A stretch of DNA of 36,894 bases, from the NCBI GenBank assembly GCA_000310025.1, contig FN649743.1:4048082-4084975 (forward strand), read 5' to 3'. Source of the DNA: Ectocarpus siliculosus (taxonomy: Eukaryota; Sar; Phaeophyceae; Ectocarpales; Ectocarpaceae). Position numbers and translations under genes: made by a program. Positions 2,241 through 36,893 of this stretch are shown piece after piece (the first letter of the stretch is position 1; the number at the start of each line of letters is the position of its first letter). The notes under the pieces are model-generated. The model was given only the letters and a program-made list of their open reading frames with translations, ran no database searches and was not told where the DNA came from.

Positions 2241-5200
2241 CCGAAGTCGGCGGACACACTCCACCCCCCCAGGTCAACAACACAATACCAAGAAGACGGC
2301 GGCGACAAGATGCCTCAAAAGGGGGGCGTGTAGTACGTAGCTGATTTTTCCAAATTTTGTGAAAGGGGCCGAGAAACAGTAACTGTAGCTTCCAAATTAT
2401 AAGAGCTCCAATTTTTTTTGGCTTCGACCTGGCTTCGCAAAATTCCCAAATTTGGAAACATTCCTACCCTTTGGAGGGAAAGCGCTGTGAATGACGCGCC
2501 GCCGGGCAAAAAGTACCGCCCCCAATATCGCCCCGGTAGTCTATTTAGTTGGTACACATCCTCGAAAGCCTTCTAGTCGCCAGGGTCAGGGGTCCGAATC
2601 CCGGCGAAAGCGAGCTTTGGCTGCAAAGTGAGCTCTTCTTTCGCGTCCGTGCCTGGCCTGGGTGGAAAGCGCTAGTTCGTGTGTCCACATAGGGAAGAGA
2701 GTGCTGCACTCTCGCATTAAAAATCGAAGGATGAGCACCGCAGGAGCGGTGGGAAGGGGGCCCCAGGGAGAGGAACCCTTCTGTGTGACCACGGGTTGGA
2801 GTAAACGGCACGAATGCTGTGAGCGCTGATTTGAAGTGAAGACAAGCAAAAAAAACACCAGCAGAACAGAGAACGTGGAACGTAAAAATCAAGTATCTAC
2901 CTGGGCACACGGCGAGCTCCATCATCCGGAGCAGCCTGTCCGCGGCGGAGTGACCCAGCCCTCAGCCAGATCACGCCTCCTGGGAACGCCGCCTGCACTC
3001 GGGGGTCTTTGCATCGCCGCCGCAGCGAGCACGCTGACGAGAACATGGGACCGGGGGGGGGGGGGTAGTGTACTCATAGTCGTGCATGCCGTAGTCGTTT
3101 GACCATTGACCTCGCATCCCGACAAAGCCGGGACGGAGCACGCCGGGTTCTCACCGGACCAGGCTCTCACATCACCAAGCGCGAAGCGCCGTGAGGTATT
3201 TGGCGAGTCGCATGAAGGGTGAGCTGCATCCTGCTAAGGGTGTTCGGCATCTTGTGCTTACTTCCTTGCGTACGGATGACAGCTGCGTATGACTTAATTT
3301 ATTTTCTGGTGCTTTCACTTCCAGAGACAGTTGTAAGCACTGTGTAACTGCCTCGAGGAAGCTTGACCATTTTAACACAACGTGGTGCGATCATCCCCCG
3401 TTGCGCGGAGTGAGGTTTCTCGACCCCGCACAACATGATGTACTCGACCACCATTATGGTTACCGCCAAAAAAAAAACCAGAGGTAAAAAAAAAGACGGT
3501 AACCTGGTTGCCGATTTCACGAAGTGAATTGGCTTGTTTTACAACGTCGTTGACAATCGACGAAAACCCAATCCCGATGGCAAACACCGAGTGGGGGGTA
3601 CTCATGTTTTGCATGCCGAAGTTGTTAGACCATTGGTCTCGCTTCCTCGAGAGGGCAGAGTGGACGGGGGGGGGGGGGAACTAATGTTTTGGACGCCAAA
3701 GTTGTTAGAGCATTGACCACGTGTCCTCGAGAGGACAGGGCATTGTTTCCACAGGACTGACGGCCAATCGCTCCTTCCTACTTCGCCACAGGTGCTCAGC
3801 AAGGTTTTTTCCTATCCCACCTATCCTTTCGATATCACTTCCCGCCTTTTCAGAAGGGGAGGGAGGCGGGGGTGATACTGTTGATGCTTGATTGAGTCAT
3901 CTGACCAGTAGTGATCGCGCTCGTCGGTGTGCACGCATGTCCTTCAAGTGACTCTCATCATCACGTACGCCCTGTTCCCGTCGGCAACAGCACCAAACTG
4001 AGAAATACCTGATAAAGTCCCGCCCGCCCCATCTCGTCTGCGCATCTCTCTACCAAAACCGGCGCATCGCCCTTTTGTATGCATACCTTTTCCCGTTGGC
4101 GACAGAGTCGAATATCACCGTCGTGGCACCGCCGATAACACCCGCGCCCCCCCCCGGCCCCAGCGCCTCCGCCAGCCTGGAAAAATAACAAGACCATGGA
4201 TGATGTCGACAAACAAGCGTCGTGAGAGCAACAACAAAAGAACGTCGGTGGCATTTCAAGGCACACAACTACCAACAGCAGTTGACTCTATTGTTGCCTT
4301 TGTGCGCCTGCGAGGCCACCTACGAGGAGAGCAACCTCCCCCTCCCACCGCCACCACCCAGAATGCAACTCACGCCACCACCGCTGCCACCACTACCAAC
4401 AAAACCACGCCAACATCCCCCCCATACAAAACCCATCACTAGCGCCGCCCGATGCCACCCCCCCTACCGCCGCCTCCACCGCTACCATCACCAACAAGTC
4501 CACCACGACACCCCCCCTACCAACACCACCAACAACGCCACTCTCGCTACCGCTGCCGCTGCCGTCCGCCACCTCCACCACCCCCAACAAAACCACTACG
4601 ACACCCCCCCATACGAACGCCGCCACCCCCGCTACCAACACCTACAAGTCTAGCGCCCTTCCTCCTACCAACACAACCACCACCACCACCACCACTTCAC
4701 CCTCCCTAGCGCTCTGACACCCCACCTGGTGATCTCGTCTTCCCGGTGCACGTAGCACGACGGCGTCTGCGGCACGGCCCCGCTGACCTCCGCCAGGGTG
4801 TAGGGCTTCAACGCCACCGCGGCGGCGTCGACCCCGTTGTCGAGGTCGTCGTCCGCCAGGAACACCTCCCGGGACTTGTCGTACTCCGAGCCTTGCTGCT
4901 GCTCGTCGGTGGGGTTGGTTGGTTCGCACCACGACAAAGAAAGGGGGAAGAACGCAAAACGCGGCGGAATCAAGGTCCGGTCAGTCGGTTTCCCGTCAAA
5001 TGAACATGAGCGGAACGAACGAAAGGGCACAAAAACACGGCGGAATCAAGTTCCGGTCGGTTTGGACCGGCCAGGCGGGGGTCCCCGTCCGATGAAATAT
5101 AAGGGGAATGAAAAGGCACATATTGCCTACGCCACCACCGCTAATAGCAACAACAGCTTGCGTGCTGTGAGTGCTACGAGCATTGCAGACGCCTGAATAT

Positions 5201-8200
5201 CTATCCCACAGTAGTCATATCCCTGACCAGACCAATGCCTCCGCTTTCAACAGCAACAACAACAGGTATGCAGCGAGCATCTTGCAAGCATCTTACTACG
5301 GTAGTGACATGACACAATATACCACACCCCCTGGACCGATTTCGACTTCTCGGCAGGAAAAGCAGTGACGGTGCCAAAAAATAGCGTTAGGCGTAAGAAC
5401 CGTCTTGTGGAGCGCTTTCAGAAAACACATCCCTTGATTTCAGCATCCTCTTCGTCGTGGAGTAATCGAGCTTCGAAAATCGGTCCAGGGTGAGTGATAT
5501 CGGACAGCCATTTACAAAGAAAATAGAACAGGGAGGGGTTACGCAGACAGACCCCACCCCAACCCTATCCCAACTTCCCCGATTGCATGCTTTATATACC
5601 CAACACGTTTAATTAGCCGAAAAGCCCTGTAAGGGCTCCTGGTGATATCTCGTGCAAACCTACAGCATCCATCACATCCCGTTCGACTGTGGGTATATCT
5701 CGAATGGGTAGTTTTCTGTGTATGTATTTCTTTTTCCTTAATAAATCTATCTCACCATCATGTCCCTGAGGTTGGAGCGTTGTCTTCTCGGCACGCCGCC
5801 GTTGGGGATAGCCGGGTTCTGCACCGGTATCGGGTTGGCCTTGTACGATGCCTCCAGCGGATCGCTGCTGTCCAGCAGCGCAAGCACACATCCAGAGAGC
5901 ACACACATGGGAGAAGCAGAAAGCAGGTGAATGACGAAAATACTTCAAGAAAAAAAAAAACGCATCGTGGGAATCGAGGGGGAACGCTGGGGTTGGTGGT
6001 TGAAGAAGCTCGCGAGGTCAATGAAAAGCAGCAGCAGGCGCATCGGTTTTTGAAGAAGCTCGTGAGGGTAATGAAAATAGCAGCGGCAACACCAGTCAGT
6101 CGGAACGGTTAATTCGGCCTGGGTCCAGCTATGCTACTCGTGTAGGACACCCGTCACCCGTCATGCAATAAAGGCAAAAGATAAGCTAGATATCTAGGAC
6201 GAAATACAGCGATACCCTTCACGACCGGTGGTGGCGGGAGGGGGGAGGTACTGCATGACCCTCAGCCAAAATCCTCGAATCTCGCATTTCCCATGCCAGA
6301 CCAATCCCCCCGCACGACTTGTGTGGTATGTATGAACTTCTCCGGGTGCATTCTGCGTGTCCCCCACCACGAAAAGCACACAAAATCAATTAACTCACTC
6401 TTCATCGAGTGCGGGGCGACCACCGCTGTTTCCACGAACGGCTGCCGCAGCCGGTCGGGGAGATAATCTCCGGGGCGCACTGGCATATGCACTTATCGCG
6501 CCCTTCGGTGACCAGCGTGGGGGTTAGGTACGGACGGCCAGGCAGGCAAGCGGCCGGTAATTATGCCGGTTAGCACGACGGTGGGGTTGGGTACAGACGA
6601 CCACCCAAGCAGGCGGCGCAAAATGGCGCCGGTTAGCACGGTGTGGATGGGCACAGAAAACAGCAAATCGAAGCAAGCGGACCAAACACGTATGATGGCG
6701 GCGTTTTTATCACGGCTGGATGGATGCAGAAGCACGACCCCCAAGAAAGCGACGCAAGAGATCCCGGTTACCGCGGAGGATCGGCTACAAAAGCCAGCAA
6801 CGATGACACAGACTAAATACAATACACTTGCTCATTCAACATGTCTCGTATGCATAACTCTGAATAGTGCCACGTGGTGTGTGTTTGTCCGGGAAAACGC
6901 CGGAGAAATCCCTTGGCAAAACTACTGCTGTGCAGCCTTACAGCATATTTGGACACCTCCTACTGTCTTTAGCAAGAATGTCAATCAGCCAAATACGGTT
7001 TTACGCCCGACCGTGCCGACACGCGCACGGCCAGCGCGGCCGAATCCACGAAGGCGGGTGGGTATTCTGCGCACACCTACGCACCTTCGCGGGGTGCGAT
7101 CTAGCGTAGGGAGATAGGATGGCGAATAGAGCGTTGGACTCGTCCTGCGTGCAGCCCTCGAAGTCGACCGTGTCCGTCGAGAACCTATCAAATGGATTGT
7201 GGGTTAGGGAGTTGGGGTTAGCATTGTTAGTGATACGGCTGGCGCTAAGCCTTAACATTAAGGGTAGAGAATAATAATGCCAGCGTTAGTGTTGGTGTTA
7301 GAAAACAGGGTTAGCGTCAGAGTTAATGCTAGTGCTAGGGTTAGAGCAAATGTTTAGAGTTAGCGTTAGTGACGGTGTTAAGGTTACCGTCGCCGTACGT
7401 GCCAGGGTGCCTGTTGGTGCTAAATAGATAAGTCGGGATACGGTAGCTGCTCCCCATATCAGGGTTAGCAGAGGAGGAGAAGGGAATGCCAAGGAGACCT
7501 TCTCCTAGCACGCCACCACAACGCTCGGTTGATTTCCGCTTGACAATTTCCGTCCTCGTTGTTGTTGCGCCGCATGCGCCATCACAAATGATTCAAAACA
7601 GCACACAGCCACCAATACTAACAACAACGACAACAACCTTACAAGCGTCCATCGGTCGACCTCCAAGTTTTCGAGCCAAGGCCCTCCCACCCCTCGACAA
7701 TCTTTGCGTGTACACACTAGGCTGTGTACAACAGACGGTGGTGGCAAGCCGCAGTGTGCAACAATGTCACCGTCTTACCATCCACCACCTATCCCTCCAT
7801 CCTCTCGAGGACGAGTGGCCAATGGTATTAACAACGAAGGCATGCAAAACAAAAGCACGCCGCCCCCAAAAACAAGCTCGCACCATGACCAACAAACCTG
7901 ACCAGTACCCTTCGCAATAAATGTAAGCTTGGCTTTAGAATATAGGTGTTACAGGGTTAGGGTTACGGATAGGGATACGAAGCCCCCCTCTCTGTTTCAT
8001 AGATAAATGATAATATCTTCGCGAATGCGGTCCAACCTGCTCCACCGAGGAACGCGAGTCCCGCTCACCTCAACCGTATGGTCAGCCGCGGGTCTGGCAC
8101 GTGGTTGCTGAGCCGCCATGGGCCACTCGACGACCGACCGCCGGCGCTATCCCTCGACGAATAGATTTCCGAAGGGGGCACCCCAAGCGTTACCTGAGAG

Positions 8201-11200
8201 GGCGAACAGACACGGCAAGAAGCACACAGCAGTACACCAGTCGACACGTCGCCACGCCTACCGTAGGTGACACAAGAGAACACCTCCCCCCGAACCGGTT
8301 TTCATGGCTCGATTTCTCCACAACGGAACAAGTGGCAGCGACGAAAACGGCGTTGTTGAAGCTGTCCCGTCGAGAGTTTTCCGAAAACATATCGTTTCAT
8401 TTGTGCATCCTCTTCGTTGTGAAGAGTAATGGGTATTTGAACACCGGGGGTGTGGTATCTTGTGTCATGTCGCCTGTTCCGCGCGCTGAAGCACCTTCGC
8501 AGCTGCCGCGACACAAACCTACAAGGGAGGGGACGTGGACTAAAGCTGCTTTCTCTGAAACCGCTTCCATGCTAGACAACCAACGCATCGATTGCAAGAC
8601 CACTGCTGTGTGCTGCTACATACGGGTGAGAGGTTGGACAGAGACTGTGGCTAGGAAACCAGCTACAAACAACGCATCGACTACAAGACCCACTGCTCCT
8701 GTGTGCTGCTACACACCGTTAAGAGGTTGGCCACCGGGTGGACAATCTTCTTCCCGATGAAGTTTCTGACCGAACTCTTGGCGTTCTTGACCAACGCGAA
8801 CTCCGTCTCCGTCTTGTTCATCCAGACCATCCTCTCCTGCGGCCTGCCCTTCTGCGGCGGATAGTATACAACCTACACATCAAAGCACAAAAAGGCGGAG
8901 AAGAAGGGGTAATCATGCCGTAGTCGTGAGACCAACGTCCTCGCATCCCTACAATGGCGGGACGGAGGGATATGTCGGGTTTTCGCCGGCCCATGCTACG
9001 CTTTCACAAGGATGTACCAGTTGTCATTATCCTTGCGTTTGCTGTGCCAAGAGCACGGGGGTTGAAGAGAGGTTTAGGGCGTGAGAATGTTCGTTGGCTG
9101 CAATCGTCGTCGTTTGACCTTTTGACCCCGGCATCCCGGCATCCAGAGCGAGAACTAGAGCACGGGGGAGAGGGTGTGTGTGGGGGGGTGAATGCTGTGC
9201 ACAGCTCCACTGGCTCGGCCCGGTTGACTGAGACAACTTACGTAGCACCGTGAAACTAAGTGGCCGGGGTGTCCGCGTGAAACCAAACACAACGCTGCAA
9301 GGAGCGCAGGTATGTACAGCACCAGAACTGGTGCTCTCGCTGCTTGCAATCATTGTGAATTCTCCCACTGGCTGCCACGTGCACAGCAGCAATCGTCTAC
9401 AAGGACATTCACGTTTTCTGTTCAAAAGAGAACGTCCTTAGAGCGGGGAAGCATGATGTAAACTACACGCACACCCAATATCGCTGCTATATTCTGCCGG
9501 GCACCATACTCCTGGAGTGTGTCCTCAAAGAGGGAGTCATGTCCTTAATTTATGGTGCCAATAAAGACGGGGAGTCTGCTGTACATGCAAGACAAGACAC
9601 CAATGCAGACATGGCGCTGGCCCTTTCAGAATCGATCATTTTACGCGAGGCGAAAACTCGTCATACATGTGACGGTGTGACACCGTACATGCGGCCGCGA
9701 GTAATCTCGCCGCATTCGAACCTGACACAAGCTCGCCTCCACAAGCATGGAGAGCTCATGTCCATGCAACAACGTAAAAAAACGGGTGTTGTACCCACCA
9801 CTGACGCCAAAAAGTGGGGAAAACCATGCGACAGAAGTCCTGAAAACCATGTTGTATTTCAATCTCATACATTTCCAAACATCAAAGTGAGCGTTCTGCG
9901 ACGACTGTCCTTGGAAACACATCACTGCTGTAGGTAGGTGGCGAACCGTCCTCTCAACCTGGCCGGCGGGGGTCATCAGCAGGTGATACGAACACCCACA
10001 CCAAAAAAAAGGAACATTCTAAATGCATACAGTTCCATGTTGTTGACCTAAAAAACGTCGTAATGTTGAATAACAAGGGCATGCACGCACGCAGGCTAAC
10101 GACATACCGAACCAAGGAAACCCTAACCCTTGGAAGTGAACAGTCGGGTCCACTCTTTCAGGTTAAAGATACTCCTCTTGTGGTCGTCGCTCGGTGCAAT
10201 TAACTACGTGCGAAAACTTTTGCCGCACGCAAGGCGAAAATGGACATTCTTCACGGGGGGGTGTCACAGCGTTATTTCGCTGACCAGTTTAACAACAGTA
10301 CGAGTTCTTATGCCGTTTCTTGGGCAGTCGAAAACGGCACTCGTCGGAAAGTTATTAATTCCAACGGTGGAGGGACAAAAAATGTACACAGCCTACCACA
10401 AAAGTTTTTTTTTGGTTCTGCGAGAGAGGTAGGTCCGCCTCGTAAATGCAAAAGAAAAGAAAACGGTGTTGAAGTCGAAAAAGTCGTCATCAGTAGCCCG
10501 CGACACTTCGGAAAAACTGTTCTTATATTATTGGTTCTCTTTCGTTGGACAAGTACCCCTGCTCCAAGCTCCGAGCAGACCCGATGGAGTTCAGTAGCCT
10601 ACAACATATTGGATGAAGGATGCAATCGGGGAAGTCGGGTTTGGGTTATAGGGATAGGGATAGGGGGTCTACGTACCCCCTCCGTCTTCTATTTACTCAT
10701 AAACATAAATTCTCGCATCGAGTCAGGCCCTCAGGTTGGCGCGCACGAGCAGCACGCACCACTATTTACTACACTCAAAACCCTACCAGACCTTCCCCCG
10801 AGACCCTGGAAACCTGTTTTCTTTTTAGTCACAAGGAGAACGGACGGCACAACGAGAAAAACAACGTCGCGAAGTTGTGCTAGACTAGACGCAACGCGCC
10901 AGAGCAGGCGTGGTGGAAAAAACGCGGCGCGATTGAATTGAACATTCTGGTTTTATGCAAGCCGGGTGCCACCTACGCCGCCAGCACTGCTTCAACATCC
11001 TGAGGCAAGCTCTGTTGGGTGGGATGTTGCACTTAATTAATTAACAACCGTGAACAGCGACACCGTCTGCGCCAGTGCAGATAGCGAAAGGTAGCGAGTC
11101 ATTGATTGTAGGTACATTTCCTTTAGACAGCAGCAGCGGTAGCGTGGAATCGTGACGTCAATAAGTTGACGCACACCGGGCCGCGGCCGTCCCTCCGGGG

Positions 11201-12870: not shown

Positions 12871-15800
12871 GGTGTTGCACTGCACACGCCCGAACGCAGT
12901 TCACCGCACCCCAAGAGAAGTCGGCGGAGCAAGACGTAGACAGAATCGCGTTCTCTCTTTGCTTGATGTCGTTGCGAGAAAATTCTCTGCACGTCCAGGC
13001 TGCGCAATACAGCAGCAGGGGGTCCTCTCCGGCCGATTTTTTTCAAAACAAGCTTCAACTGGTTCTAGTGCAACGGTCCGATGCCAGCAGTCGCAGAAAG
13101 TGTGGGTAAACGACCCACACGGGCGCTGGTACACTCCGGCGCGGCAACCCTCTTGCCTTGCAGTTTGTGCAGCCGCCGGCTGTTGCTGTTGACCTCCGGA
13201 GGTCCGCCGGATAGTATACGCGTGGTATGATGTAAAGAGCTGTCCACGTGCCCCCCCGTCAATCCCCGCAAATCCCCGCGGCTGCGGGCGTCCTTGCCAT
13301 TTTTTCACCACCCTTATTATTCATATGCATAGCACACACTGGGTGGAGTTCTTTGCACAGCACCGTGCACCTGCTGCAAGCCCGAGGGGGCACCTCCCGC
13401 CCGATCCCACGTTAAACCTTATTCGTGGCCCATGAACACCGGCAGAATCAAACGTATGCGATGGTGGCCGCGTGAAAATTTATCCGCCAACATCGGCGGA
13501 CGAATGACTATACGATGCACTTTGTCCGAGGTCATGCTCACGTATGCACTCGCACACCAGTTTCTCCCTGCGTCCAGTCTTCCGTATGGTCGCTGCTCGT
13601 GTCCGGCTTCAAACAGAAGATGTGCTTATTTTGGTTTGAGGATCCGGTTCCTCACGTATAGTTTAAAGTCCCCATCAGAGACTGTGTACTGATGAGAACG
13701 ATAAAAGATCATCCACACAGACAGGCGCCAAAGCGGTAAAATAATGTGGCAAATTGCAAATTGATTGCTAACCATACAATTGTGACCGCCCCCTCCCAAG
13801 TATCCCGAATTCAGCAGGACCATCCCTTGCCGTGAGGCGCTTACGTGTCGTGAGGCGCTGTTTTTGACGCACGCCGAGCCACAAGCATCTTTCCCAGATT
13901 CATCCGCAAAGAGTATAGGTGCGGGCTTGGACCTCTTCGTCGTTCCCTGCGCCATTTGCCCGGTCAATGCCCACGGGAGTGATTAATCTTGAATAACTCC
14001 CACAAAATGTCGGCCGGAAGATCAACACCTAGAGCAAGTGATGGCTACATATGTACCCGTCGCCTGTCGGCCCATCAATAATCCATCATCCAGACAGACC
14101 CGAAACCGCACACAAGAAAAACATTGCCGCCACAAAAAAAGCACAAAAACCTCGTTGTTGTGCCGGATGTATCATATATATGTCCTAGCAGTAGCTAGGC
14201 CCAACAGGAGGCACCCTTCACTTCCAAAAGTATAAGTAGACGAGCCCCAGCAAGATCAAGCAGAACCTGAAGTATCAACACGAAAAGGCCCAAAATGTCG
14301 GGATTGTGAGCTTGCTTGGCACCGATGGTTCCGGGAAATTCTCCAGCACCGCAAGGGCGCGCGGTTCCTGCGATTCAGCCCTTTCGGGTCTACGGGCGTC
14401 CTGACAGGGCATGGATCATTTGCAAAAAAAGCTGGTGTTGCGGCATGCCATGGAGTTGCCGCCCTGTATCCCTCCCACGCCAGGTGTTGGCAAGTTCGTA
14501 GGTAGGTGTGTCTTTATTATTCGTATCGACCGCGCTACCCGGTGACCAATGAAAAGACGTTATAGTGCCAGCGGCGGGTAAAATCAAGGTCCCTGGCGGC
14601 CAACGTCGAAAAACGCACGATGCGCTAAAAAATGCGAAAGCCACCATGAATCTCTCCCCATATCCTTTCACAGAGACACACATCAATCAATAGCTCCACA
14701 TACATCGATAGCTCCACATACATGCCCTCGCCCGAATCTAGGAAGCCACTAAAGACAGGATTACAGCAAAAAGGGGCATTTCAAGGTTTCAAGCCCAACA
14801 AGGCCAGGATATCGTGGTATGCTGCGTAGACTCTTGTCCAAATTTGAAAATCGTACACTCCCAAGATCCAGCAGTCATCGTGTCAGCAGCTATACTACAC
14901 AGCAGCAGCAGCAGTATAGACGAGTCCAACATACAGTTAGTAACATATACACGATCATCATAGCCCAACACATACCCTCGCCCGAACCTAGAGAGCTACT
15001 GATGCAAAGGTAGGTGTGTGCTGGTGTGCCTGCGTGGTTGTGGGAATTGTGGGAAAATCACAGGAGCTGTAGTGAGCCGGCAGGGCTCACATTGGGGAGG
15101 GGGCAGAGAAGTACAGAAGAACAATGACCAGCTATGGGTTTGCAAGCCCTCTCACTGATCATTTTCACTGATCATTTGAATATACTGAAGATAGAGTAGT
15201 TTAGGCGTCTTGACGATTGATCTTTTCGAGGTCTACAAGCCTAACCTGCCCTACCGACCGCACCGCGACCACGCATCAACCCTTCTATGACCCTGCCTGT
15301 GCCCACCGTCCTGTCGCGGGCTGCCCTCATGGCCCATGTGTGGAGATAGCTATTGCGCCTACAGAAGTACACTGGTCTCTTTCTGCTGTACTCCTCTCTC
15401 TCTCCCGCACTCTCTTCTACCTTGTTTTTTATGCCGAAAAAAATAAGAGCTAGACCCAAAAGGGTTTAGTAAATCGTTCGTGAACATCCCACACGATAAA
15501 CTCCGAGCACCCTTTCGTTCACTCCTGGTGACGCATCTTGATGACGCACAGTGCTTCATTTTTCGCCCTCCGACGGAGAACCACCTAACAGCAGTCCCGG
15601 GACGTAGGGGGTACGGTATGTATCGATCAAGCACTCGCTACGAACGTGGGGGTTTGTGCAAGCGTGGTTGTGGCCAAAGGAATACCATCACAACAACCGT
15701 TATCTTGAGGATTGAGCCGTGGTCTGGATATGGCTTGTCGAGTTAACGCATGAAACACGCAGACGTTCGAAACCCAGGGGGAAAACCTGTGACCCGGTGA

Positions 15801-16020: not shown

Positions 16021-19000
16021 TTAATATTCGAACCCCCTGGATCTGCTTTGGTCGTGGGCGGAGGAAAACTTGGGCACTGCGGCTCTCCTCGTCAAGATCG
16101 AAGTACAGTAGTGAGGTGCACTTTTTGGTTCTCTCACCTCAGCGTGCACGCCGTAGCCCCGCATGACGGAAATGATTTCTGTCGGATTGTTGTCCTCCAC
16201 AGCCACCATGTAGAAGAAGCCGCCCGGGCTTAGGAGCTCCTGGAAAAAGGGCAAGGATGGTGACGGCATCACATTCTGCCATCGATGTCTATTGGCCACA
16301 CGCTTGTGCTGCAACTCTCAGCTCTCATCCCCGAAGCCAAGGCCCTCCCTCCAAGACATTGCGGGACCAGGTAGGCAGTGCGTGTGCAGCAGATCGGGTC
16401 AAGTTTTGCACCAGCCGGCTCTCTAATGCAAACCCCAACGATTGCGTAAACCTCGTTTTCTCTTGTGCATGTCCAGAGTAAAGCTTAAGATTTGCCTGCT
16501 TGAAGACTGAGCATGCCATTCGCCATGGGTGGAACTCCTTCCTCAACACACGTCGTTAGAGACGTCGCATTCAGCGTCTGTAGGGGTACGTGGAGTTGGT
16601 CCGCACGTGCAATTGTGCTACACGTGACGCTTTTCGCCTGCGAGACACACTCTGTGTGTGTTTCTAGTCCCGCCAACGCGTAACCCGCCGCACCTTAACT
16701 GCCGGTAGAAACCTGTCTATGACTTCTCGTCCCCGTTCACCCCCTGCCCAGGCGGCTGCAATATCCCTGCAAAATCTCGCGGAGGCGCGGCGTTCCGACA
16801 ATAATCGTCGCACAAAAAAAAAAAAGCTCGTCGAGAAGGCAAGAGGGCGGACAAGAGTCTAGCAGATATCCGCAGAGGTGCACGCAAGTCAGGCCAAAGG
16901 CGTTGTTGAGAAAAAACACAGACTGGAGGCACAAGACTCCACCGTCAAGAGGGGGTTTCACCAGCTGGATAGAACAACCGGCAGAGTTGCCTAACCCGTA
17001 TTTCAACCCCTGCCTACCCGATCTTCTTCACAAGAAACCCGGGCCTCAAGAAGACTCTTCTGCTCAGCGCGGGGGACATCCGCCCGTCAATAATGGATGC
17101 AAGACACCATGGAGAACACACGACGTAAGTTTCCGCTACTGAACAAAGGGCAGATCGCGGTAAGCCCAGCTATTGTCACCACCCACCGCCAACAGTAAAG
17201 CGACACCGTCTGCTGAGCCAACTACTGTAGGCTGCGTAAGATATCACACCCCTTGGGTCGATTTTCAAAGCTTGATTAGTCGGGTGGGAAAGCAGTGACG
17301 GTGCCGCAAACGGCGGAGTTGGAAACCGTGCCGTCGAGAGCTTTCCGAACACGTATCGTTTGCCTTCGGCATCCTCTTTGTCGTGGAGAAATCGAGCTTT
17401 GAAAATCGGTCCAGGGGGTGTAGTATCTTAAGCAACCTACGGTATCGCTTAGAGTATCAATGCTTGCAGCAGTGTTCGGTCATTTCCCCCCCTGTGCTGC
17501 GGCGTATCTGGTTTGGCACAGCACACGCAAGACAATGGCCAGCTTCTAGTTCATGTTTGTGAAACGTAGCCTGGGCCACAGAAAACCCGGAAGGCATATC
17601 GCTCCGTCCTGGGATGCGAGGTCAATGGCCAAACGACCACGGCATGCGTTTACATGAGAACGCCCCCGCCCCCCCGGTGCGATGCATTCTCTCACTTTGA
17701 ACCGACCTCCTCCGGTGGTGTTGGAACATAGGGAGGGTTGAACAGCAGGACGTCGACCAGCCCTCTCAAGCGATCCCGCATGCAGATGTCGAGGTCGCAG
17801 CAGACAACTTCGAACGGCTCCACCTGTCGAGAATGGCGTGCAAGAACGGATGGTGTTGGGGGCAGCGATGCTAACCTGTCCCAGTTTAGGGGTAGTTGAA
17901 CTCGCTTCCGTCTATGTGAAGGTAACAGGGCTGGCTATTTATTTGCCAGGCAATCACCGCCAAGCCTTCTTGAGTGTTGATATCGACAAGGTCTTGGAGG
18001 AGGAAACTCCCCCGATCTTTCTCCCTGCACTCAGGTCTAGCCAGGGACCCCAACACAATTTCTCAGCTCTGGAGCAGGGCAGTATGTACCCCGAGCTTTA
18101 TCACCACACAGCTCTAGTCTGCAGACATGAATACGATCAAAGGAACCCCCAGCATGAAATCTGAGTGGCTTAACCCTCTGTTGCATCGCACGTTATTGGC
18201 CTTCGCCGTGAGCACGCAAGCCGCGGCAGCCCGCGGGTTAATCTCCGCGGCCATGAAGAGCGGCCGTGGTGGGGGCGGCGGCGGTGTAGGCTGCGAGGGT
18301 GTCTCCTCCTTCTCTTCCCTCAGCAACGCGGAGAGGGCCGCCGTCACTAGGCCGCTGCCTGGCCTACGTTGTGAGTTCAGAAGGTCGCCGGGAGGGATAT
18401 GGGTGGCATCGTTGTTGTACGGGTATATTCGACAAGGATGCACAGCAACCTCTGGCAGCAGCAGGATTGAAGTCGCAGTGGTGTATCATGGGTATTGGGG
18501 GATCGATGGCACACGATGCAGGGGGTTCAGGCAACCTTCGGTCACGTGTGCCAGAATACCGGAAACTATGAACACACGAGCCGATGTTTGGACGCTGAGG
18601 CACGCCACAGTAGTGATCTGTGAGCTGCAGTTGATGGTGATTTCAACGAATTGGGTAGCCTGTCACCATTAACGCCAACAACAACGTCGTGACTGAGCCA
18701 TGGTGTAGACTCTTCCAAGAAATGGCAGTCGGCATGTTGCACATAGGTCTATGGACGGATTTCCTACGGGCTGAGGGCTCACGGGATCGCAGGAAATGCA
18801 ATCTTGATGCTCTCGTGAGCCTGGAGCCCTTTTTTCGCAGTTTCTCCGCCCGTAGACCTCGCCTCGAAGCGAGACTTGCACCTACCGATAACCCTGTGTT
18901 GCGAGGGCTCTCCCGGCGTGCCGCGCGCTCTCGGGGCGGACTGCGTGCAGTGCTGGCGATGGCAGAAAGTCGCGTCTCCGACATCGACCATGGATCCACC

Positions 19001-22070: not shown

Positions 22071-22189
22071 GGCATCGATCGTGCGACGCGGGGATAGGTG
22101 TCGACTCAGTATGAGAGCGGGATGGCGGGATAGAGTTGGGAAGATTCCAGAGGCACGACGCTCAGCGACGAACAGCCGCAGGCGTACTC

Positions 22190-23361
22190 TTTTGGTATGC
22201 AAGCCTTACCGGTTAGACCATTGACCACGCGTCCTCGAGAGGACGGAGCATTGTTCCCACAGGACCGACCACCGATGGCCAATCATTCCGTCCTACATAC
22301 TTCGAAGTACGTTGCCAAAGGTGGCTCAAAACTGTTCCCTAGCGTATCTATCCTATCGATATCACTTCCCGCCTTTTCAGCCCACTTCCTATGCCCCAGT
22401 ACAACTGTCGTCTTCGCCTTCCTATTCCATGCCTCAGAACACCTGCCGTATCTTGTTCTCTACCACTCTTTTTCCCAGCTCAGTCATGCACACTTCCCTC
22501 TCCTTGTAACGGACATTCCCCACCTACATGAACCCGGTCTTCGCACTGGGAGCCGCAATCACAATTGAGCTTGTCGTCTTCATCGTCTACCTTGCGAAAT
22601 CTCCGTTTACGTTCTCGAAGGCTTATGTCCCCGGTCCTAAATTTGACCTTCAGATTTGTCCCTGCATCCATTGGTCCATGTAGGTGCTCCTTGAACCCTA
22701 TTCCTTCTTTCAACATTCCGTACACTTCTAGGCCCTCCTTATCCTTGTTTTTTTTTGTTAGATTCTGTTCTTCTCTCTCGACACAAGCAACAGATATCTT
22801 CTCCTTGAACCCTTCTAGACCTTCCGTTTCCAGCGTCCCACCTTTATCAATTTCGAACCGTTTCCATACGTCATCTACACCCTTGACCTACTCCATGGGT
22901 TGTCTAACCCTCTTCTTGTTTGACCACTTCGCCTTCCAAGCTATTCTCGGCAGCCTCTCCTCGCCCATACCGCACATGCGGTACTGTCCTTTTAGCGCCC
23001 CTGCGTCTCTTCCCGATCGTAGGGATTGGATCCCCAGTTCTGCCCTGACGACTGCATCACTTGTCCGCTTGGAGCGTCCTAGGATCATTTTCGCTGCTTT
23101 CATCTGCGCCGCCTCGAGCTTTTTGACTACCTTCTCATTTCCTTCCCACACTTCTCCGGTGTACTCTAGGGGCGGTGCGATTACGCTCTTCAAAACTTTC
23201 AATTTGATACGTGTATCAACGTGCCGGTACGCGAGTAGTAGGTGCAGCTTCCCTGCTCGTGCTTCGCCTTTTTCGATACCTTGGACATGAGTGCATTCCA
23301 CGAGCAATCTTTTGTGGTCTCTACCGACCGAACTTCGTCTGCCCCCTGCACAAACACGCAC
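22190..23361 (-). mobile_element. 5'-truncated LINE: C-terminal coding part plus 3' end (family B, longest copy)
   Basis: The minus frame 23361-22888 has the pattern seen after the reverse-transcriptase domain in many non-LTR elements: RAGKLHLLLAYRHVD, IKLKVLKSVIAPPLEYTGEV, KKLEAAQMKAAKMILGRSKR, then a Glu-Leu-Gly block. One in-frame stop follows. The frame then reopens to about 22480 and ends in a Cys/His segment (NCDCGSQCEDRVHVGGECP), as in the C-terminal zinc-binding end of LINEs. Beyond a further stop the sequence becomes family B (22480-22190) with the hairpin CGTCCTCGAGAGGACG. The reverse-transcriptase catalytic part is not in the window. Inactive fragment. Confidence 0.8.
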
Positions 23362-23449
23362 TGTCGATAAATCGTACTAGTTCATGTACCCGGTACCGCC
23401 GCATACAATCCATGGAGATGCACTTATGTCATGCGCCCTCATCGTGTCG

Positions 23450-23823
23450 CCATCCCCCCCCCCCCCCCCCCCTCGGCTACCCATGGCACATCTGGTTTAG
23501 CACAAAACGTACGCAAGGATTATCAGTATCCTTCGCAGGTTTTTTCGATTACGTAAACATTCAGGATAAGACATACAATCGGGGAAGTTGGGTCAGGATT
23601 GGGGTTAGCGAATAGGGTTTACGTCCCCCCTCCCTTTTCTATTTCCTCATAAACTTGTTAATCTCGCGAAGGCGGTCCAGGATGATGGCAATGTCCATCC
23701 TTGTGAAACGTAGCATGGGCCGCCGAAAACCCGGCACATCGCTTCGTCCCGTCATCGTAGGGATGCGAGGTCATTGGTGTCACGACTACGGCATGCGGTT
23801 ACATGAGTACCCCCCCCCCCGCC
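23450..23823 (+). mobile_element. Retroposon family A, longest copy A4
   Basis: Runs from a C18 tract (23456-23473) through CCATGGCACATCTGGTTTAG, ATACAATCGGGGAAGTTGGG, CTCGCGAAGGCGGTCCAGGA and CTTGTGAAACGTAGCATGGG to GGCATGCGGTTACATGAGTA and a second C run (23812-23821). On the minus strand the terminal 90 nt have tRNA-like arms, and GCATG/CATGC can form an acceptor-like stem. About 340 bp, non-coding. Confidence 0.8.
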
Positions 23824-25246: not shown

Positions 25247-26683
25247 ACAGTCGTGGGCCCGGTTTAGCAGTTCCCTGTTTAGCGGGTTGCCCTGAATAGC
25301 GGCTATAAAATCTCGTGACATGGCCGCACCCCGGTTTAACCGCTAAACCGGTCATGCCCTCAATAGCGGTTACTGGACATATTTTCAGCCGCCAATAGCG
25401 GTTATCGGTTGAATTCCTCTCACACTTGCCACTGCTTTGGCAAATTTAATTAATCCATACAATCTCAAGTAATTAAGCAATTTTCGGTTTTTGACATGCA
25501 AGAGACACAGCGACATTGGTCAGCCGCTTAGCGTGGTCGATGCTCGTAATAAAAGCACATGGCAACACACACACAACAGGCGGCGCGGATGGAGAACTGT
25601 GGCTTTCAAATGCGGCACTGAGTCCAAGCGACGCGCACGATTGTATAGGTGGCTGTGGTGGCCGCATGCCCGGCATGTATGGAGAGGTGGAGGGTCCTGA
25701 TGGCAACGAGATGCACCGCATTTGCCAATAGTGTGCAACCAAGAAGGCCCAGAGTTTCCCTCGCGTCTCAAATCCACCCAACAAAGCGCAAAGAGGCGGA
25801 GAATGGCTTTCTAGCACCAGGCGCGGAAAACAACAACTCGCGCTGCAGCTACACGACAGCCCCCCACGCGGCCCAACTTTGGCCAGAAGCTTGAGGTTTT
25901 GGATATTCTTGACCAGAAGGTAGCGCACTCAGAACTAACGCGCAGGAAGAGATCAAAGCTTTTTGCGCAAGGATCGAATAACATGCTCGTTGAGAAGTTC
26001 TCCAGTATGTACATGGAGGGACCTAGCTCCTCCGACGACGAGTTAGAGCTAGAGCGAGATCGCACCGCAAAAGTTGACGGTGCTAAGGGCAAGGGGGGTG
26101 ATGGCGCAGCCGCCATGAGCTATCGGCTGATTTTGGCCAGCTTCAAGAGTGAACGGAGTTGTGTGACGTGGGCGAGGCAGCACACTATCTTCGCAAGGCA
26201 AAAATGGCGTTCCTCGCAGCGAATATCAGAGAGATGCATCATCGATCCACGCGACAAATGGTACAAATGAGCTGCCCAAGCACGCGGTTGGTTGCCATTG
26301 CGTTGTCACAAACTTGCTCCACGCTCGTTAGAGACGGGAACGATTTTCCAGTCTCAATGAAGGGCATACAGTCCGTCACGGAATACACGCTGTGTGAGTC
26401 GTGAATTGAAATGCACTACTACTGTGCTGGCTGTGTTGTCATCCTTAGGGTCGATACTTCTTCATCTGCACCTTCGTATGACTGCTGCAACGAGACACAT
26501 GCAGGCCCTATCAGGATGAACTTTCGACGCTGCTCTTGTTGGCCAATAATGAATGGGCTTTTTCCCGGTTTAGCGATTCATAACCGCTAAAGATGTTTTG
26601 CGGCGATGCCCTGAATAGCGGTTACAAAATTTCGTGACAATATAGACCGCTAAACCGAGCCCACGACTGTTGTATCAATGATA
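25247..26683 (+). mobile_element. 1.4-kb DNA-transposon-like element with inverted ends and degraded coding region
   Basis: The left end ACAGTCGTGGGCCCGGTTTAGC (25247) is repeated inverted at the right end (GCTAAACCGAGCCCACGACTGT, to about 26680). Several AATAGCGGTTA / TTTAGCGG subterminal repeats lie at 25270-25410 and 26571-26665. Inside, plus-strand frames contain a Cys/His-rich piece near 25630-25730 (GGCGGRMPGMYGEVEGPDGN, then HRIC), then RPNFGQKLEVLDILDQKVAH, resembling the helix-turn-helix start of pogo/Tigger-type transposases, an acidic Ser-rich patch (EGPSSSDDELELERD), and more coding in shifted frames to about 26270. No DDE catalytic block is visible. Reading as one degraded element is inferred; two separate MITE ends are the alternative. 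Confidence 0.55.
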
Positions 26684-30300: not shown

Positions 30301-33300
30301 GAGTCAAGAAGTCGAAAACAAGGTGTGCCCGTCCAAAGCCGGACGAGTTAGAGATAACTGTCTACAACGAAAGCAACGAAACACCGGACTAGAGAAAATA
30401 AGAACTCACACGTTGGAAGGAGTAAACATAGAACAGTGGCCTTCTCAGGGTTTTTTGTATTATTTGAACATGTTGGGGATAAAGCATACAACTGGGGAAG
30501 TTGGGTTTGGGCTAGGGAATAGAGTCTGCGTTCCCCCTCCCTGTTCCATTTCCTTAAACACGAAGTACTTATTGTACTCGCGAGAAGGCGGTCCACACAG
30601 AAACACCGCACGTCTCGACCGCCGGCACCGAACGCGGACAACCTCGATAGACTCGATAGACAGCCCACCCGCGAGTCCCTCGAGATGTTCGTGGTGTCGT
30701 TGGAGATAGCCTTGGCGATGCCGAAGTCGATAAGCTTCAGGGAGCCTTTCACGAACACGAAGTTCGCCGGCTTCAGATCACCGTGCACCACCTGGGGAAG
30801 GCGGTGGGAGGGGAGGGAGGGGAAATGTAGTGGTGGGTGAAAGTTCACAGCCATGCATAGCCGTGAAGTCAGCAGAAAGTATGAGGATGGCGGGAAGTAA
30901 AAAATACGCAAGAAAGTAGACGCACGCGAGGGAAATATATATATGTGAAAAGACAAAAAGAACGAAAGTACTGTAGCTGGACTAGAAACTCCACGTATAG
31001 ATTCTAGCCAAATTTTTATCCAACCTTATTGAGGCAATATTTTTCGGGGGTTTGGATGACGAGTAGACGCTTTCATCAAAGCCATGACCGCATGCGCCGG
31101 ACTTCCACGGTTGGTACGCAGGAAAACGCTTCCGGGGGCTCACGGAAAGGAGGGGGTCGTGTAGTCGCACACGCACGTAAGGCACTGCAGACATGACGGG
31201 TTTTACATCGAAACACATCAACAAGATGGAGCGGACATGACGGGTTTTACATCGAAAGCACCCGAAAAATGGAAACGAATTGTTTTTCTAGGCTCCCAAA
31301 CAAAGGTGCAGAATGAGCAAACCGTTCCCAAAAATGTATAAAAAAAAAAACTAGAAAATGGGTACGTGAACGGTTTTGCTTAGGGAGTACACGTCCACTC
31401 AAACTCACTCGCTGTTCGTGCATGGCCTGAACTGCCTTCAACATCTGCTGCCAGATTACCCTCACGAAATTGGCGTCCAGACCTCCCGGGAACAAGCCCA
31501 ACGCTTTAGGGTCGGCCCTGGCGGGAAGGAGGCGTGATTTGACAGCGAGGGGGCGGGGGGCAGGGGTGGGAATGATGTACCAGCTAAGAAAGAACACAGA
31601 TATCAAGATTTTACCAGAAGAACATCGGTGTGCGCGCGCGCTTGTGTGCGAGTGCCACAGAACAATACAGGTTGCTAATATTAACAATATGTTGTGCCCC
31701 CAGGCGTGTCAGCACAGGGTCTGACTCTAACTCTCACCGTGACGAGGCAATGGTAGGGGTGGCAATGACGCGCCACAACAACAGAAAACACTAAACGCGA
31801 GCGAAGAAAAAAGTCGTACCCCCCGGGCGCGATTCCCTTCTCACCGTGATGAGGCGATGTTAGCCTTGTACTGCCGCATCAACTGGTCTAGGTCCGTTTC
31901 CCCCAGTTCCAGGACAATGTAGATGAGCCCTCTTCTTCTGTCCACCTGGCATTGCCCACGAGTCGAGGGAACCAACATAGATGAAAAAAAACACACACAC
32001 ACTCCAAAACGGAATCGAGTGCAAGGTAGCAGCCTTCGTAGACAAGTGCGGTTTTCTTCTGTTGCTACCGTTTCTGTCTTTCATCCGGATAATAGGATAC
32101 CGTATATGACACAAGATAACACACCCCCTTGGCCGATTTTCAAAGCTCGATTTCTCAACAGCAGGAAGAGTCACAGCGCCGAAAACGGCGGCGTTGGAAC
32201 CGTCTCGTCGAGAGCTGTTCGAAAACGTATTGTTTCCTTTATGCATCCTCTTCGTCGTGGAGTAATCGAGCTTTGAAAATCGGTCCAGGGGGTGTGTTAT
32301 CTTGTGTCATATACGGTAGTCTCTCCCATGGCGCCCCCTCACGGGGTCCGAGATCATGGCATTTAGAAGTGTTTCGTGTTTTCAGCCGCACTGAGACTGA
32401 CGTCTTTTCATTGGTCAGCCAGTAAGCGCGGTCGATGCTAACAATAATAATAATAAAACACACACACAAATGACGCCCTCTCACGGGGTCCCAGATCGTG
32501 GCCTCTGTTGCCTATACAAGCATTTATTGTTGTTTTTCTTTCGAGTTGATTCATCATTGTCGGTTTCTAGATCACCAAGGGTGCAGAGAGAGAGAAAGGG
32601 GGTAAGAACTGGCGCTAGAAGCACCCAATCCTCGCGGCTGATTCCTCCCTCCAAAAACTGTCTCTCTCTCTCACTCTTTGACTAACGCCTGTTCATTCAT
32701 TGGTCGGCAGGATGGCACGGTTGATTTTAGTAATAAACACGCACACACAAACACATTGGCTAGAGTTCGTGTTCGAGTATGTATCCCGCTACAACGACGT
32801 CTGTTGATTGGTCAGCCGGCTAGCGCGGTCGATGCCAATCCAAACACACACATTGATGAGAACGCGTGTTCGAGCCACTATCAAGTTAATTCACTACTGG
32901 TGTCTCGTCATTGGTGAGCCGTCGATGCAAATTCAAACACACACAATGGTACCCACAAGCACAGAGGCAGTCTTCTCCAATCGTCCAAGCTCACCAATCG
33001 TGCAGATCGACTCTGCTAAATGGAGCAGCGAAGCATGTATAGCGCCCCTGCTTCTTGAGCATACGCCACGTGCAACAACCGCGAGACACACAGGCATCCC
33101 GACAGGTGTGTCTGGCCGGCCGACACACCGTGCCAATATTATCGTTGTGCGGGGTGCCGAAAAAAGCTTTGGACGGCGAAATAACGCATCCAACTTCGAG
33201 AGCATGAAAAATTGTAAATACGGACCGCTGAAGAAGACCTTTCGAGAGCGAAAAACAAAACAAAACAGCCATAACTTCGAGAGAGAGAGAGAGAGAGCAC

Positions 33301-36056
33301 CTCCGAGTTCTCGAGGTTGATGATGAAACGGTTCCCCTGCAGGCTCTTGAGTAGCTCAATCTCGTTCGAATAGCTATCCAACAGAGCTTTCGCATTTTCG
33401 GCGTGGTTATCCACCTTGACAACCTTCAGCGCCAGCATCTGACCAAAGATGACGGCAACGAAGACGGGTGGGGGGGTGCGTACCCATGTTTAGCATGGCT
33501 TTGCTGTTAGACCATCGACCACGTGTCCTCAAGAGGACGGAGCCTTGTTCCCACAGGGCCAATCACCGATGGCCACATGGCCACCCGTTTCTTCCTACTT
33601 TGCCAAAGATGGATGACAAAGTAACAGAATAGGGGATTGGGGTTAGCCGACAAAACAGATCGCTCAGAAAAAGAGGACACACCGATGCTCATTCCATTCG
33701 CGGAGCCACCCGTGACCCTGCGTAGGCAGTTGTACGCCAAGGCTACTTAAACAAAAATTCACAGCACCGCCATATACAACAGCAAAACCGTAAACCAGGC
33801 AACAGCGGCGCCTCGGCCACCGTCATCTAGAGAATTACCACGCATGACCAGCGATGGCGACTCATTCCCCAAGAAAAAAGAGAGGATGAGCAACACACAT
33901 ACACTCACAACCATGTCGGTAGAACTCTCTGATTAAAAAGCGTGTTCGATTTCGTTTGTTATCCCGCTTCGTGGCTGGTGTCTTCTCCTTGGTCAGCTGG
34001 CTAGCGTGGTCGATGTTCATTCAAACACAAACACACACGAACTACCGCACCTCGCAATCCGGAGCAACGACTCTGAAAACCTTGCTGCTGCCGCCCCGTC
34101 CAATCTGAGCCGTCTTAAGGTACAGGACTCCGTTCACCATCACCTCCGACCAACTCCTCTTGTGCGAGACCGACGAGTGGTCAAAGGCCACCACCTAAGG
34201 AAACCCCGCCGCGACGCGACACACGACAAACAAGAAAGAGGGGTTTCCGTGATTTTTTTGCCGGGGGGGGGGGAGACGGGAGAGGGCGCTAGGGGGGGTC
34301 CGGGGGGTGAATACGGTGGGGGCATGGGGGAGGGGGGGGGGGTACCAGGGGGAATGGGAGAGGGCGCTGGGAAGAGATTGCGGAGGGAGCTGATGCTTAG
34401 CTAACTAGCAGACAAACGCACCAACCAACGGAGAGTGCGTGGGCAAGAATAGGCTTGCCTGGGGGATGGGGACGAGAGTGAGTTACAGCTCTACGGGACA
34501 AACATAGGCTGTGGTAGTGGATAGCGTGGAAAGTCAAAGTTTGTCGGATGGAGCGATGCTTTGGAAAAATCCAAAGCTTTGAAGGGAGGGACGTGTCCGC
34601 ACAATGCCAACGTCATGTGGGTCAGACGAGGGCGAGGGGAGACCCATCACCAGGGGAGGATCAAACCATTTTGGCATGGTTCCATGAAGGCAACGTAAAA
34701 ACACGAGACGGACACCTAAGGGAAAGACCCGCGATGCAATCAGTATCCATCGGGTTTCCGGGCGCTTAGCATCCACGGCAAACTACGGCCACATCAAAAA
34801 AGAGCGGGGCTGCAGCGACTCAGTCGAGAGCTGCTTTCTAAATAGGGATCCATCGGCGCTGGCAACTTGTGCGTTCATGATTCAAGGTCGGGTCAGGCAG
34901 TACGCATATCTATTAAATAGTATAATCACACCCAGAGTGAATCTCTGATATCTACGTCTGGCGTGTAGAATGGAGAGGAAACCATCCGTGGATACCATCA
35001 TGTTATGCGAGCAAGCTTAAGGTCAAGCTCAGCTAGGACCAACTCCCCAAAGACGGCGTCGCGTCGTCGAACTTGCAGGCAATCAATGTTGGGCGTGTGG
35101 CGCGGCAACCGCAGAGTCATGCTCACCTTGCCAGGTTTGTCGAAGCTGCACCCCCTGCCGCCGATGCCCAACAGCCCACTTGAAGAGCTGGCCCCATCGC
35201 CTAACCCCTCGCTGCCAGCACCACCTCCGCCCCGGTCGCTTTTATCTGTCCGCTCAGAGCCCACCTGCGGCGTCAAATCTCCCTTCAACCCCCCCCCCTC
35301 GGCAGAAAAAACTCCGGGGCCCCTGCTGCTGCTGCTGCCGCACGTCGACCAGGGTGACTCCTCGCCCACGGGCAATGCTGTCGCCGCCGGCGTGCCCCCG
35401 GGGTTTTGAGCGGCGACACCGGTACCGTTTCGGGAGGCCGAATTCTCGCCGCCCTGGCTCAGCCCGCGGAGGTTACCGCCGCTCCCGGCGCCCCCCGCCG
35501 TCATGACGGGGACCATAGGCCGTCCGCTTCCGGTCCCGATGGTGAGGCTCATGTCTTCGTCCTCCTCGGCAACCTGGTGCATGCCCCCCCCGGCCTTGCC
35601 TCTCGCTCCTCCAGTCCCGCTTGCCGAGCGCCAGAGCAAACCACTACCACCCCTTTCGAGGAAACCCCGCCCGCGGCTACCACCGCCGTTGGCGCCGCGA
35701 TCATGCGTCGTCGCCACGGAAGAGGCGGGATCCCCTGGCGCCGCCGTCCCTGATACCGCCGGCTCCGACGGTGCCTTCTCCTCCTCGACGGATGCTGCTA
35801 CTGCTGCAGGACCAGCGCCCGTTCTCGGCAACCCACCAGCTCTCGAACCGCCCTCGTGCGAGGCGCCTGCTGTGGCCGTGGTCAACGCTCCTGGAGCTGT
35901 CTCTGCGGCGGCGGAAGGCGGCCGCAAGCGTGACGGTGGCCGTGTCCCCGCCGAAACCGACGATGATCGCGATTCCACCGCACCGGGCCGCGGAGCCGCC
36001 GCCGCGTCCGCGCTACGCCTCCGAACCTCCGCGTCGTAAGCCTGGAGCGCGAGCAT
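27336..36056 (-). CDS. TTK: MPS1/TTK-type dual-specificity protein kinase (spindle checkpoint)
   Basis: Eleven exons, all phases joining: 36056-35127, 34194-34051, 33438-33301, 31945-31845, 31517-31409, 30791-30669, 30163-30010, 29596-29511, 28924-28801, 28514-28249, 27491-27336; 776 aa. Residues 1-310 are disordered, rich in Gly/Ser/Pro/Ala. Kinase domain about 335-640: glycine loop GRGGSSKVF (342-350), Lys363 in LALKVVK, NEIELL, hinge [10 protein letters not shown], catalytic loop HGDLKPANF (Asp479), DFG at 496-498. The activation segment [21 protein letters not shown] is diagnostic of MPS1, followed by [13 protein letters not shown] and the [13 protein letters not shown] block. A coiled coil (about 640-720) and a tail with [13 protein letters not shown] follow. 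MPS1 acts at unattached kinetochores, phosphorylating KNL1/SPC105. HGD replaces HRD, as expected in this family. ATG 36056 is the first Met after an in-frame stop, but TTAACAG just upstream could be an acceptor, so a longer N-terminus is possible. Confidence 0.93.
28071..28262. repeat. ~59-bp tandem repeat spanning the MPS1 exon 10 splice donor
   Basis: The segment CCTTGAGAGCGCT (plus strand) recurs at 28071, 28128, 28188 and 28248, each followed by a diverged spacer rich in CAA/ACAAC. On the minus strand each copy reads AGCGCTCTCAAG or a variant, then GTTTGTTG or GTATGG. The rightmost copy is the real exon end. Confidence 0.8.
28603..28789. mobile_element. MITE copy 5 (left-truncated), in MPS1 intron 9
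   Basis: Family core GCTTGATTTCTCCACAACAG, GGACCGTCTCGTCGAGAGCT, then right end CGGTCGAGGGGGGTGGGTGG to CCCTCGGTAGG. It makes up about two thirds of the 286-bp intron (28515-28800), and its terminus lies about 11 nt from the exon 9 donor. Confidence 0.8.
29150..29205. repeat. GACGGACA microsatellite in MPS1 intron 8
   Basis: GACA/GACG tetranucleotide repeats (GACAGACGGACAGACGGACG), similar in type to 345-475. Confidence 0.85.
30440..30600 (+). mobile_element. Retroposon family A, body fragment
   Basis: GTTTTTTGTATTATTTGAAC, AAGCATACAACTGGGGAAGT, CCCCCTCCCTGTTCCATTTC and GCGAGAAGGCGGTCCA match A4 (23535-23685) in order. It lies in MPS1 intron 6 (30164-30668) and stops before the terminal domain. 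Confidence 0.65.
31192..31260. repeat. Short direct repeat in MPS1 intron 5
   Basis: GACATGACGGGTTTTACATC followed by GAAA occurs twice, 43-44 bp apart (about 31191 and 31234). Consistent with a small local duplication. Confidence 0.8.
32098..32318. mobile_element. MITE copy 6 (best preserved), in MPS1 intron 3
   Basis: 221 bp. The ends TACCGTATATGACACAAGAT and ATCTTGTGTCATATACGGTA are perfect inverses, and pairing continues with few mismatches to AAAGCTCGATT / AATCGAGCTTT, more than 50 bp per arm. Terminal TA dinucleotides suggest a TA target, as for Tc1/mariner-type MITEs. No coding capacity. Confidence 0.92.
32400..32955. repeat. Dispersed ~110-bp repeat containing TTGGTCAGCCGGCTAGCGCG
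   Basis: Four partial units lie near 32405, 32695, 32803 and 32908. Each has CATTGGTCAGCCGGCTAGCG or a variant, then CGGTCGATGC, an A/T-rich spacer and CAAACACACACA. Two are preceded by GTGTTCGAG, which resembles a pol III B box. Further copies lie at 33975-34040, 25515-25550 and 1905-1945. Confidence 0.7.
33285..33299. repeat. (GA)n tract at the MPS1 exon 3 donor
   Basis: A GA run of about 8 dinucleotides (CT on the coding strand) directly follows the exon 3 donor GTGCTC, so the first intronic bases of intron 3 are a microsatellite. Confidence 0.7.
33470..33625 (-). mobile_element. Retroposon family B fragment in MPS1 intron 2
   Basis: G run, then GTTAGACCATCGACCACGTG, the hairpin GTCCTCAAGAGGAC (loop changed from GA to AA), TTGTTCCCACAGGGCCAATC and TTCCTACTTTGCCAAAG. 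The minus strand reads [10 protein letters not shown], matching LWQSRKERLA of copy 36617-36870. Confidence 0.75.
34258..34380. repeat. G-rich tract in MPS1 intron 1
   Basis: Many G runs of four or more, including two of 9-12, on the plus strand (C-rich on the transcribed RNA strand). It could form G-quadruplex on the non-template side. Sequencing error in run lengths is likely. Confidence 0.6.
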
Positions 36057-36602: not shown

Positions 36603-36893
36603 GCCCCCCCCCCCCGTACAGGGAGATGTTTGAGGCATGGAATAGAGAGGAGAGGACGGTAGCTGTACTGGGGAGTAGGAAGTGGTTTGAAAAGGCGGGA
36701 AGGGATATCGTTAGGATAGACAAACTAGGGAAGACATTTTTGAGCCACCTTTGGCAAAGTAGGAAGGAACGATTGGCCATCGGTGATCGGTCCTGTGGGA
36801 ACAATACTCCGTCCTCTCGAGGACGCGTGGTCAATGGTCTAACCGCTAAGGCATGCAAAACATAAGAATACGCCCCCCCCCCCCCCCCCCCAC
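36603..36893 (+). mobile_element. Retroposon family B copy bounded by C runs on both sides
   Basis: Begins after a C13 run (36603-36616) and ends with ATAAGAATACG followed by a C20 run to the window edge. The frame stays open (YREMFEAWNREERTVAVLGS... to LTAKACKT), but only the start corresponds to LINE coding sequence. It contains the hairpin GTCCTCTCGAGGAC and the GGTCAATGGTCTAACCGC / GGCATGC terminal segment. Confidence 0.8.

Follow-up and report, generated by a model that had tools for sequence, protein, structure and literature searches.

Two retroposon families with a common 3′ end and probable insertion at C-tracts in Ectocarpus

Using self-comparison and a profile of the 3′ end, we scanned the window, the whole stretch of DNA analyzed here (36,894 nt, 53% GC), and found 11 related retroposon 3′ ends, six belonging to family B and five, one of them weak, to family A. 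Family B represents the 3′ terminus of a LINE, a non-LTR retrotransposon, and the arrangement of C-runs around the copies indicated that the two families are probably a (C)n-tailed LINE and its SINE-like companion, inserted at C-tracts by target-primed reverse transcription. The profile returned 10 copies with E values of 1.9 × 10−13 or better; having been built from these same 10 targets, it adds only the information that the window holds no further strong copies. One weak extra match (A5, E value of 1.2) was accepted by eye. The main observation of an earlier note on this DNA, that retroposon copies are flanked by C/G runs, was confirmed with small corrections from the run list and from reading of the junctions, and we went beyond it in identifying family B as a LINE end with coding sequence, in finding that A and B have a hairpin-bearing 3′ end in common, and in finding runs on both sides of the copy at 17480.

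The six family B copies differ in length and in their flanks. B1, a 5′-truncated LINE copy (36616 to 36872, plus strand), shows 88.5% identity to B2 across 253 aligned nt, carries the hairpin at 36810 to 36825 near its 3′ end, and lies between C12 (36604 to 36615) and a C19 tail (36873 to 36891); the earlier note had both runs right and their lengths wrong (C13 and C20). The longest LINE copy is B2 (22183 to 23376, minus strand), whose 3′ end at 22183 is followed by CC only and whose 5′ limit is not fixed. B3 (33477 to 33620, minus strand) is truncated, with no C-run on its 5′ side and C7 after it (33470 to 33476). B4 (3679 to 3853, minus strand), also truncated, is preceded by an impure C-rich tract (3856 to 3872) 2 nt from its first aligned base, and its tail, a C13 run at 3666 to 3678, is also the upstream run of B5, a short copy (3599 to 3665, minus strand) that sits inside the B4 C-tail and is itself followed by C6 (3593 to 3598). 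Runs on both sides had been noted for this small copy (given as 3596 to 3667), and they were found as described. B6 (7795 to 7855, plus strand) is a short, degraded, C-rich copy with no long run on either side. Pairwise identities of the B copies to B2 were 84 to 89%; thus, most copies are old and their flanks have possibly been altered.

Among the family A copies, A1 (23473 to 23809, plus strand; hairpin at 23745 to 23765) is interrupted by an unrelated inverted-repeat element at 23530 to 23672 (plus strand; ends set by eye) and lies between C19 (23454 to 23472) and C11 (23810 to 23820), the latter followed by G and C5. Here, too, the presence of both runs held, while the lengths given for them previously (C18 and C10) did not. 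A2 (17493 to 17662, plus strand) has C7 before it (17486 to 17492) and C5-G-C7 after it (17663 to 17675), so that the statement that the copy at 17480 keeps one run proved wrong. A single run, on the 3′ side, was correctly assigned to the copies at 3052 and 33470: the former is A3 (3070 to 3165, minus strand), truncated, with no C-run on the 5′ side and C13 at 3053 to 3065, and the latter is B3 with its C7. A4 (8914 to 9056, minus strand) has C5 before it (9057 to 9061) and C4 after it, and the weak copy A5 (9088 to 9163, minus strand) has C5 before it (9164 to 9168). A5 and A4 follow each other head to tail across a C-rich gap of about 30 nt, and they could be an older case of the B4-B5 arrangement.

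We then compared the junctions with random positions in respect of C-runs of at least 6 nt. Such runs were present at 6 of the 11 3′ junctions, compared with 0.59% of random positions (binomial P = 2 × 10−11), a count that is slightly low because B3 was given a 3′ end 2 nt within its C7, which was scored as 5. On the 5′ side, where B2 was excluded (5′ end not fixed), they were present at 4 of 10 junctions, compared with 0.39% of random positions (binomial P = 4.5 × 10−8), namely, at A1 (19 nt), A2 (7 nt), B1 (12 nt), and B5 (13 nt); for A4 and A5, the 5′ limit was chosen after their C5 runs had been seen, and these two count at thresholds of at least 4 or 5 but not at 6. All four copies with a 5′ run also have a run of at least 6 nt on the other side, making 4 of the 10 copies with a known 5′ end flanked on both sides. 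The junction runs are always C on the sense strand of the element, and no A, G, or T run at these junctions exceeds 2 nt. Viewed from the side of the runs, six of the nine C/G runs of at least 10 nt beyond position 500 coincide with junctions of A or B copies; of the other three, two fall in a C-rich tract (34263 to 34342) and the third lies within an open frame at 35289. By comparison, six copies of an unrelated inverted-repeat element, whose limits are approximate, showed by eye no C/G run of at least 5 nt within 12 nt of their edges, one of them having C5 at 13 to 17 nt outside. Weak junctions occur on either side: at the 5′ end, A3 and B3 have no C-run, B6 has at most CCC, and B4 has the impure tract only; at the 3′ end, B2 has just CC and A5 has no run directly at its end. 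No target-site duplication beyond C was visible by eye in A1 and A2, and B1 adjoins the end of the window.

The assignment of family B to the LINEs rests on putative coding sequence and on truncation. B2 continues upstream of the part common to the copies through two minus-strand frames that form one reading frame split by a stop. The first (22891 to 23376) resembles by eye the part that follows a reverse transcriptase core, and the same frame resumes after the stop (22483 to 22887) with a C.C........H....C motif, recognized by eye. These frames (22483 to 23376, minus strand) gave no Pfam match, and comparison with the sequences of solved structures returned three weak matches, all to ribosomal protein eL37 (best E value of 0.024). 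Since neither search gave anything of use, we do not assign the LINE to a clade. A reverse transcriptase core was absent from the 104 frames of about 100 amino acids scanned with Pfam in the window, of which two matched protein kinase and one matched a LYR protein; together with the LINE and the inverted-repeat elements, these matches suggest that the window is nuclear DNA of a eukaryote. The alignments of the other B copies start at about 268 (B1), 198 (B4), and 99 nt (B3) and at 66 nt (B5 and B6) from the B2 3′ end, the value for B3 being 136 nt when it is compared with B1 instead. B1, B3, and B4 are truncated at different 5′ points and have a common 3′ end, as copies of a non-LTR element would be. 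Searches for relatives say little, as the collections were those of viruses, bacteria, archaea, and plasmids: the 3′-end DNA patterns of A and B were unmatched in the viral and genome contig sets (viruses, bacteria, and archaea), and the LINE fragments had no relative as protein in viral and genome contigs or as DNA in plasmids.

The last ~60 nt are common to families A and B, and most copies end in GAGTA, GAGTACG, or a near variant before the C begins. Upstream of this part, family A (~170 nt in A2) differs from B, and over the whole window ARAGORN found no tRNA and Rfam gave no match at gathering scores for it or for any other sequence. The common part includes a hairpin, with a six-pair stem upstream of the C-run. 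It was evaluated in nine copies, leaving out A2 (loop region deleted) and A5 (degraded), with the arms lined up by hand because automatic alignment displaces the family A 5′ arm. At pair 6, six copies have T-A and three have C-G. At pair 1, six copies have C-G, B4 has T-A, B5 has T-G, and the pairing is lost in B3. At pair 2, four copies have G-C, three have G-T, and two are unpaired, and B5 is unpaired at pair 3. Two of the six pairs therefore change on both sides yet still pair. The folding energy of single copies was not unusual (z scores of −1.23 to +0.89; six copies folded), so that support for the hairpin comes from these compensated changes. A and B thus have the 3′ sequence with a hairpin that is seen in LINE/SINE pairs, and from this common end family A presumably relies on the reverse transcriptase of B.

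We propose the following course of insertion. The RNA would end with the hairpin, then the short conserved stretch closing in GAGTA or GAGTACG, and last the C-run. The target would be a C-tract, and we infer that its G-strand is nicked, that the nicked strand anneals through its G-rich 3′ end to the RNA C-tail, and that cDNA synthesis begins there, with slippage during synthesis perhaps altering the length of the tail. The far end would be joined to the C-strand of the same tract, placing C on the sense strand at both flanks, and any target duplication would be hidden within the homopolymer. A leftover C-tail could then become the target of a later insertion, as in B4-B5. On the minus strand at 34200 to 34420, there is also a C-rich tract with two C11 runs and a C7 run and no recognizable copy, which would be an unoccupied target under the proposed mechanism.

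Of the two explanations offered in the earlier note, a C-tail with insertion into C-runs and addition of the homopolymer by reverse transcription, the former fits best, given the differing truncation points, the constant strand, and the copy in the tail of another, and to this extent its overall interpretation is partly supported. The runs upstream of B1 and B5 lie outside the element, since these copies differ in start point and B2 continues past both points with no C-run there. The run upstream of B5 is the B4 tail, which argues that this tail served as the target for B5 or, less likely, that two RNAs were joined by a jump; the B5 limit may also reflect a stop at the hairpin, where both B5 and B6 start to align, 66 nt from the B2 end. 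A1 and A2 have nearly equal start points, and their upstream run could belong to the element. This speaks for a reading of C-tailed elements without any choice of target: the 3′ run would be a normal tail, A1 and A2 would have a 5′ run owned by the element, and the 5′ runs of B1 and B5 would be due to chance or to an RNA-to-RNA jump, which would leave copies head to tail as in B4-B5, while A3 and B3, having a 3′ run and no 5′ run, would be expected. We consider it unlikely, as B1 starts at C12 within coding sequence and is preceded by no other copy, and as the frequency of 5′ runs is far above the 0.39% background.

Addition of the homopolymer at both ends, by reverse transcriptase or by repair, appears very improbable. 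Run lengths vary freely among the copies, and some 3′ length may indeed come from slippage; nevertheless, the sense side is always C at both ends, whereas untemplated C on the end of the cDNA would read as G on the sense strand at the 5′ junction, so that the 5′ run is poorly explained, and the C13 before B5 is also the B4 tail. Least probable of all is a sequencing or assembly artefact at homopolymers. Positions 1 to 300 are homopolymer-rich and resemble the low-quality sequence of a contig end, and only 3 nt of the window follow the last run (C19), so that absolute run lengths are uncertain and may be wrong; yet six of the nine long runs mark junctions of the two element families and keep to one strand with respect to the copies, a pattern for which an artefact gives no reason.

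Insertion at C-tracts thus remains the preferred reading, not as a strict rule: the copies number 11, come from one window, and are mostly diverged, A3 and B3 lack an upstream run, and B2 has only CC downstream. A bolder version, which we hold as possible though somewhat doubtful, is a LINE lineage that truly prefers C-homopolymers, with nicking and priming tuned to G-runs, a poly(C) tail that is at once the priming end and a self-made target, head-to-tail pile-up (B4-B5 and perhaps A5-A4), and a small element living off the LINE. If true genome-wide, insertion at C-tracts would carry tail-matched priming beyond A-tracts and microsatellites, to C-homopolymers, and would reveal a retroposon that builds its own targets. 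A G-strand primer would be an unusual substrate for a reverse transcriptase, since G-tracts can form quadruplexes. The same behavior, if true, would help to explain the long C-runs that hinder assembly of such genomes.

The window contains other repeats and a gene fragment. A third short repeat, family D, has eight copies (1892 to 1945, 25505 to 25573, 32394 to 32468, 32681 to 32759, 32793 to 32855, 32896 to 32957, and 33974 to 34044 on the plus strand and 14491 to 14563 on the minus strand), of which six have a clear CA-rich 3′ stretch, and it is perhaps another retroposon, with a (CA)n tail. Kinship of the A/B 3′ core with it is not claimed, as 854 of 20,000 shuffles scored as well. A MITE-like element with long terminal inverted repeats occurs at 1943 to 2164, 5309 to 5520, 8258 to 8424, 17221 to 17446, and 32096 to 32321, and another short repeat occurs at 23530 to 23672 (in A1), 30440 to 30590, 10580 to 10760, and 5480 to 5650, with short inverted ends seen by eye in two copies. 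A protein kinase gene fragment lies at 30351 to 31025 on the minus strand (Pfam Pkinase, E value of 6.3 × 10−8 for the frame 30348 to 30956).

Pairing between tail and target is better known from A-runs and short repeats. A literature search found no C-tailed LINE or SINE, which is weak evidence of absence, the search having covered titles and the openings of abstracts, in which the bracketed spelling is unsearchable. In Ectocarpus itself, RTE-X LINEs are abundant, and the short nonautonomous RTEX-N1_Ec32 has their 3′ end and a 5′ part of obscure origin (PMC12477816). This pair resembles B and A in joining a LINE and a short element by a common 3′ end, while RTEX-N1 is ~600 bp and family A is ~170 nt (A2), a comparison made by description only; A and B may already be catalogued in that 2025 survey, whose consulted text mentions neither C-tails nor C-run targets (PMC12477816). 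LINE/SINE pairs with shared, hairpin-bearing, repeat-ended tails are known, e.g., the green-algal RTEX and RandI LINEs and SINEX, which are like A and B in the shared 3′ end, the hairpin with compensated changes, and the terminal simple repeat (PMC3747384). The tails there are A, T, TTG, CA, CAA, CCAT, ATT, and similar, compared with (C)n here, and the tail tables of that work, which are confined to plants and green algae, contain no (C)n entry, in agreement with the previous remark that C-tailed retroposons are not a standard class (PMC3747384). Togen, a group of (TG)n-specific non-LTR elements related to the NeSL clade, likewise uses a simple repeat as its insertion target; this target is a dinucleotide repeat in a NeSL-related element, whereas it is a C-run in family B, which is not assigned to a clade (PMC4640811). 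Finally, mammalian L1 elements use tail-matched priming at T-tracts and are like A and B in that the primer strand pairs with a homopolymer tail of the RNA; L1 combines a poly(A) tail with a T-tract, whereas A and B would combine a C-tail with a G-tract and have a conserved 3′ end in addition (PMC3649969).
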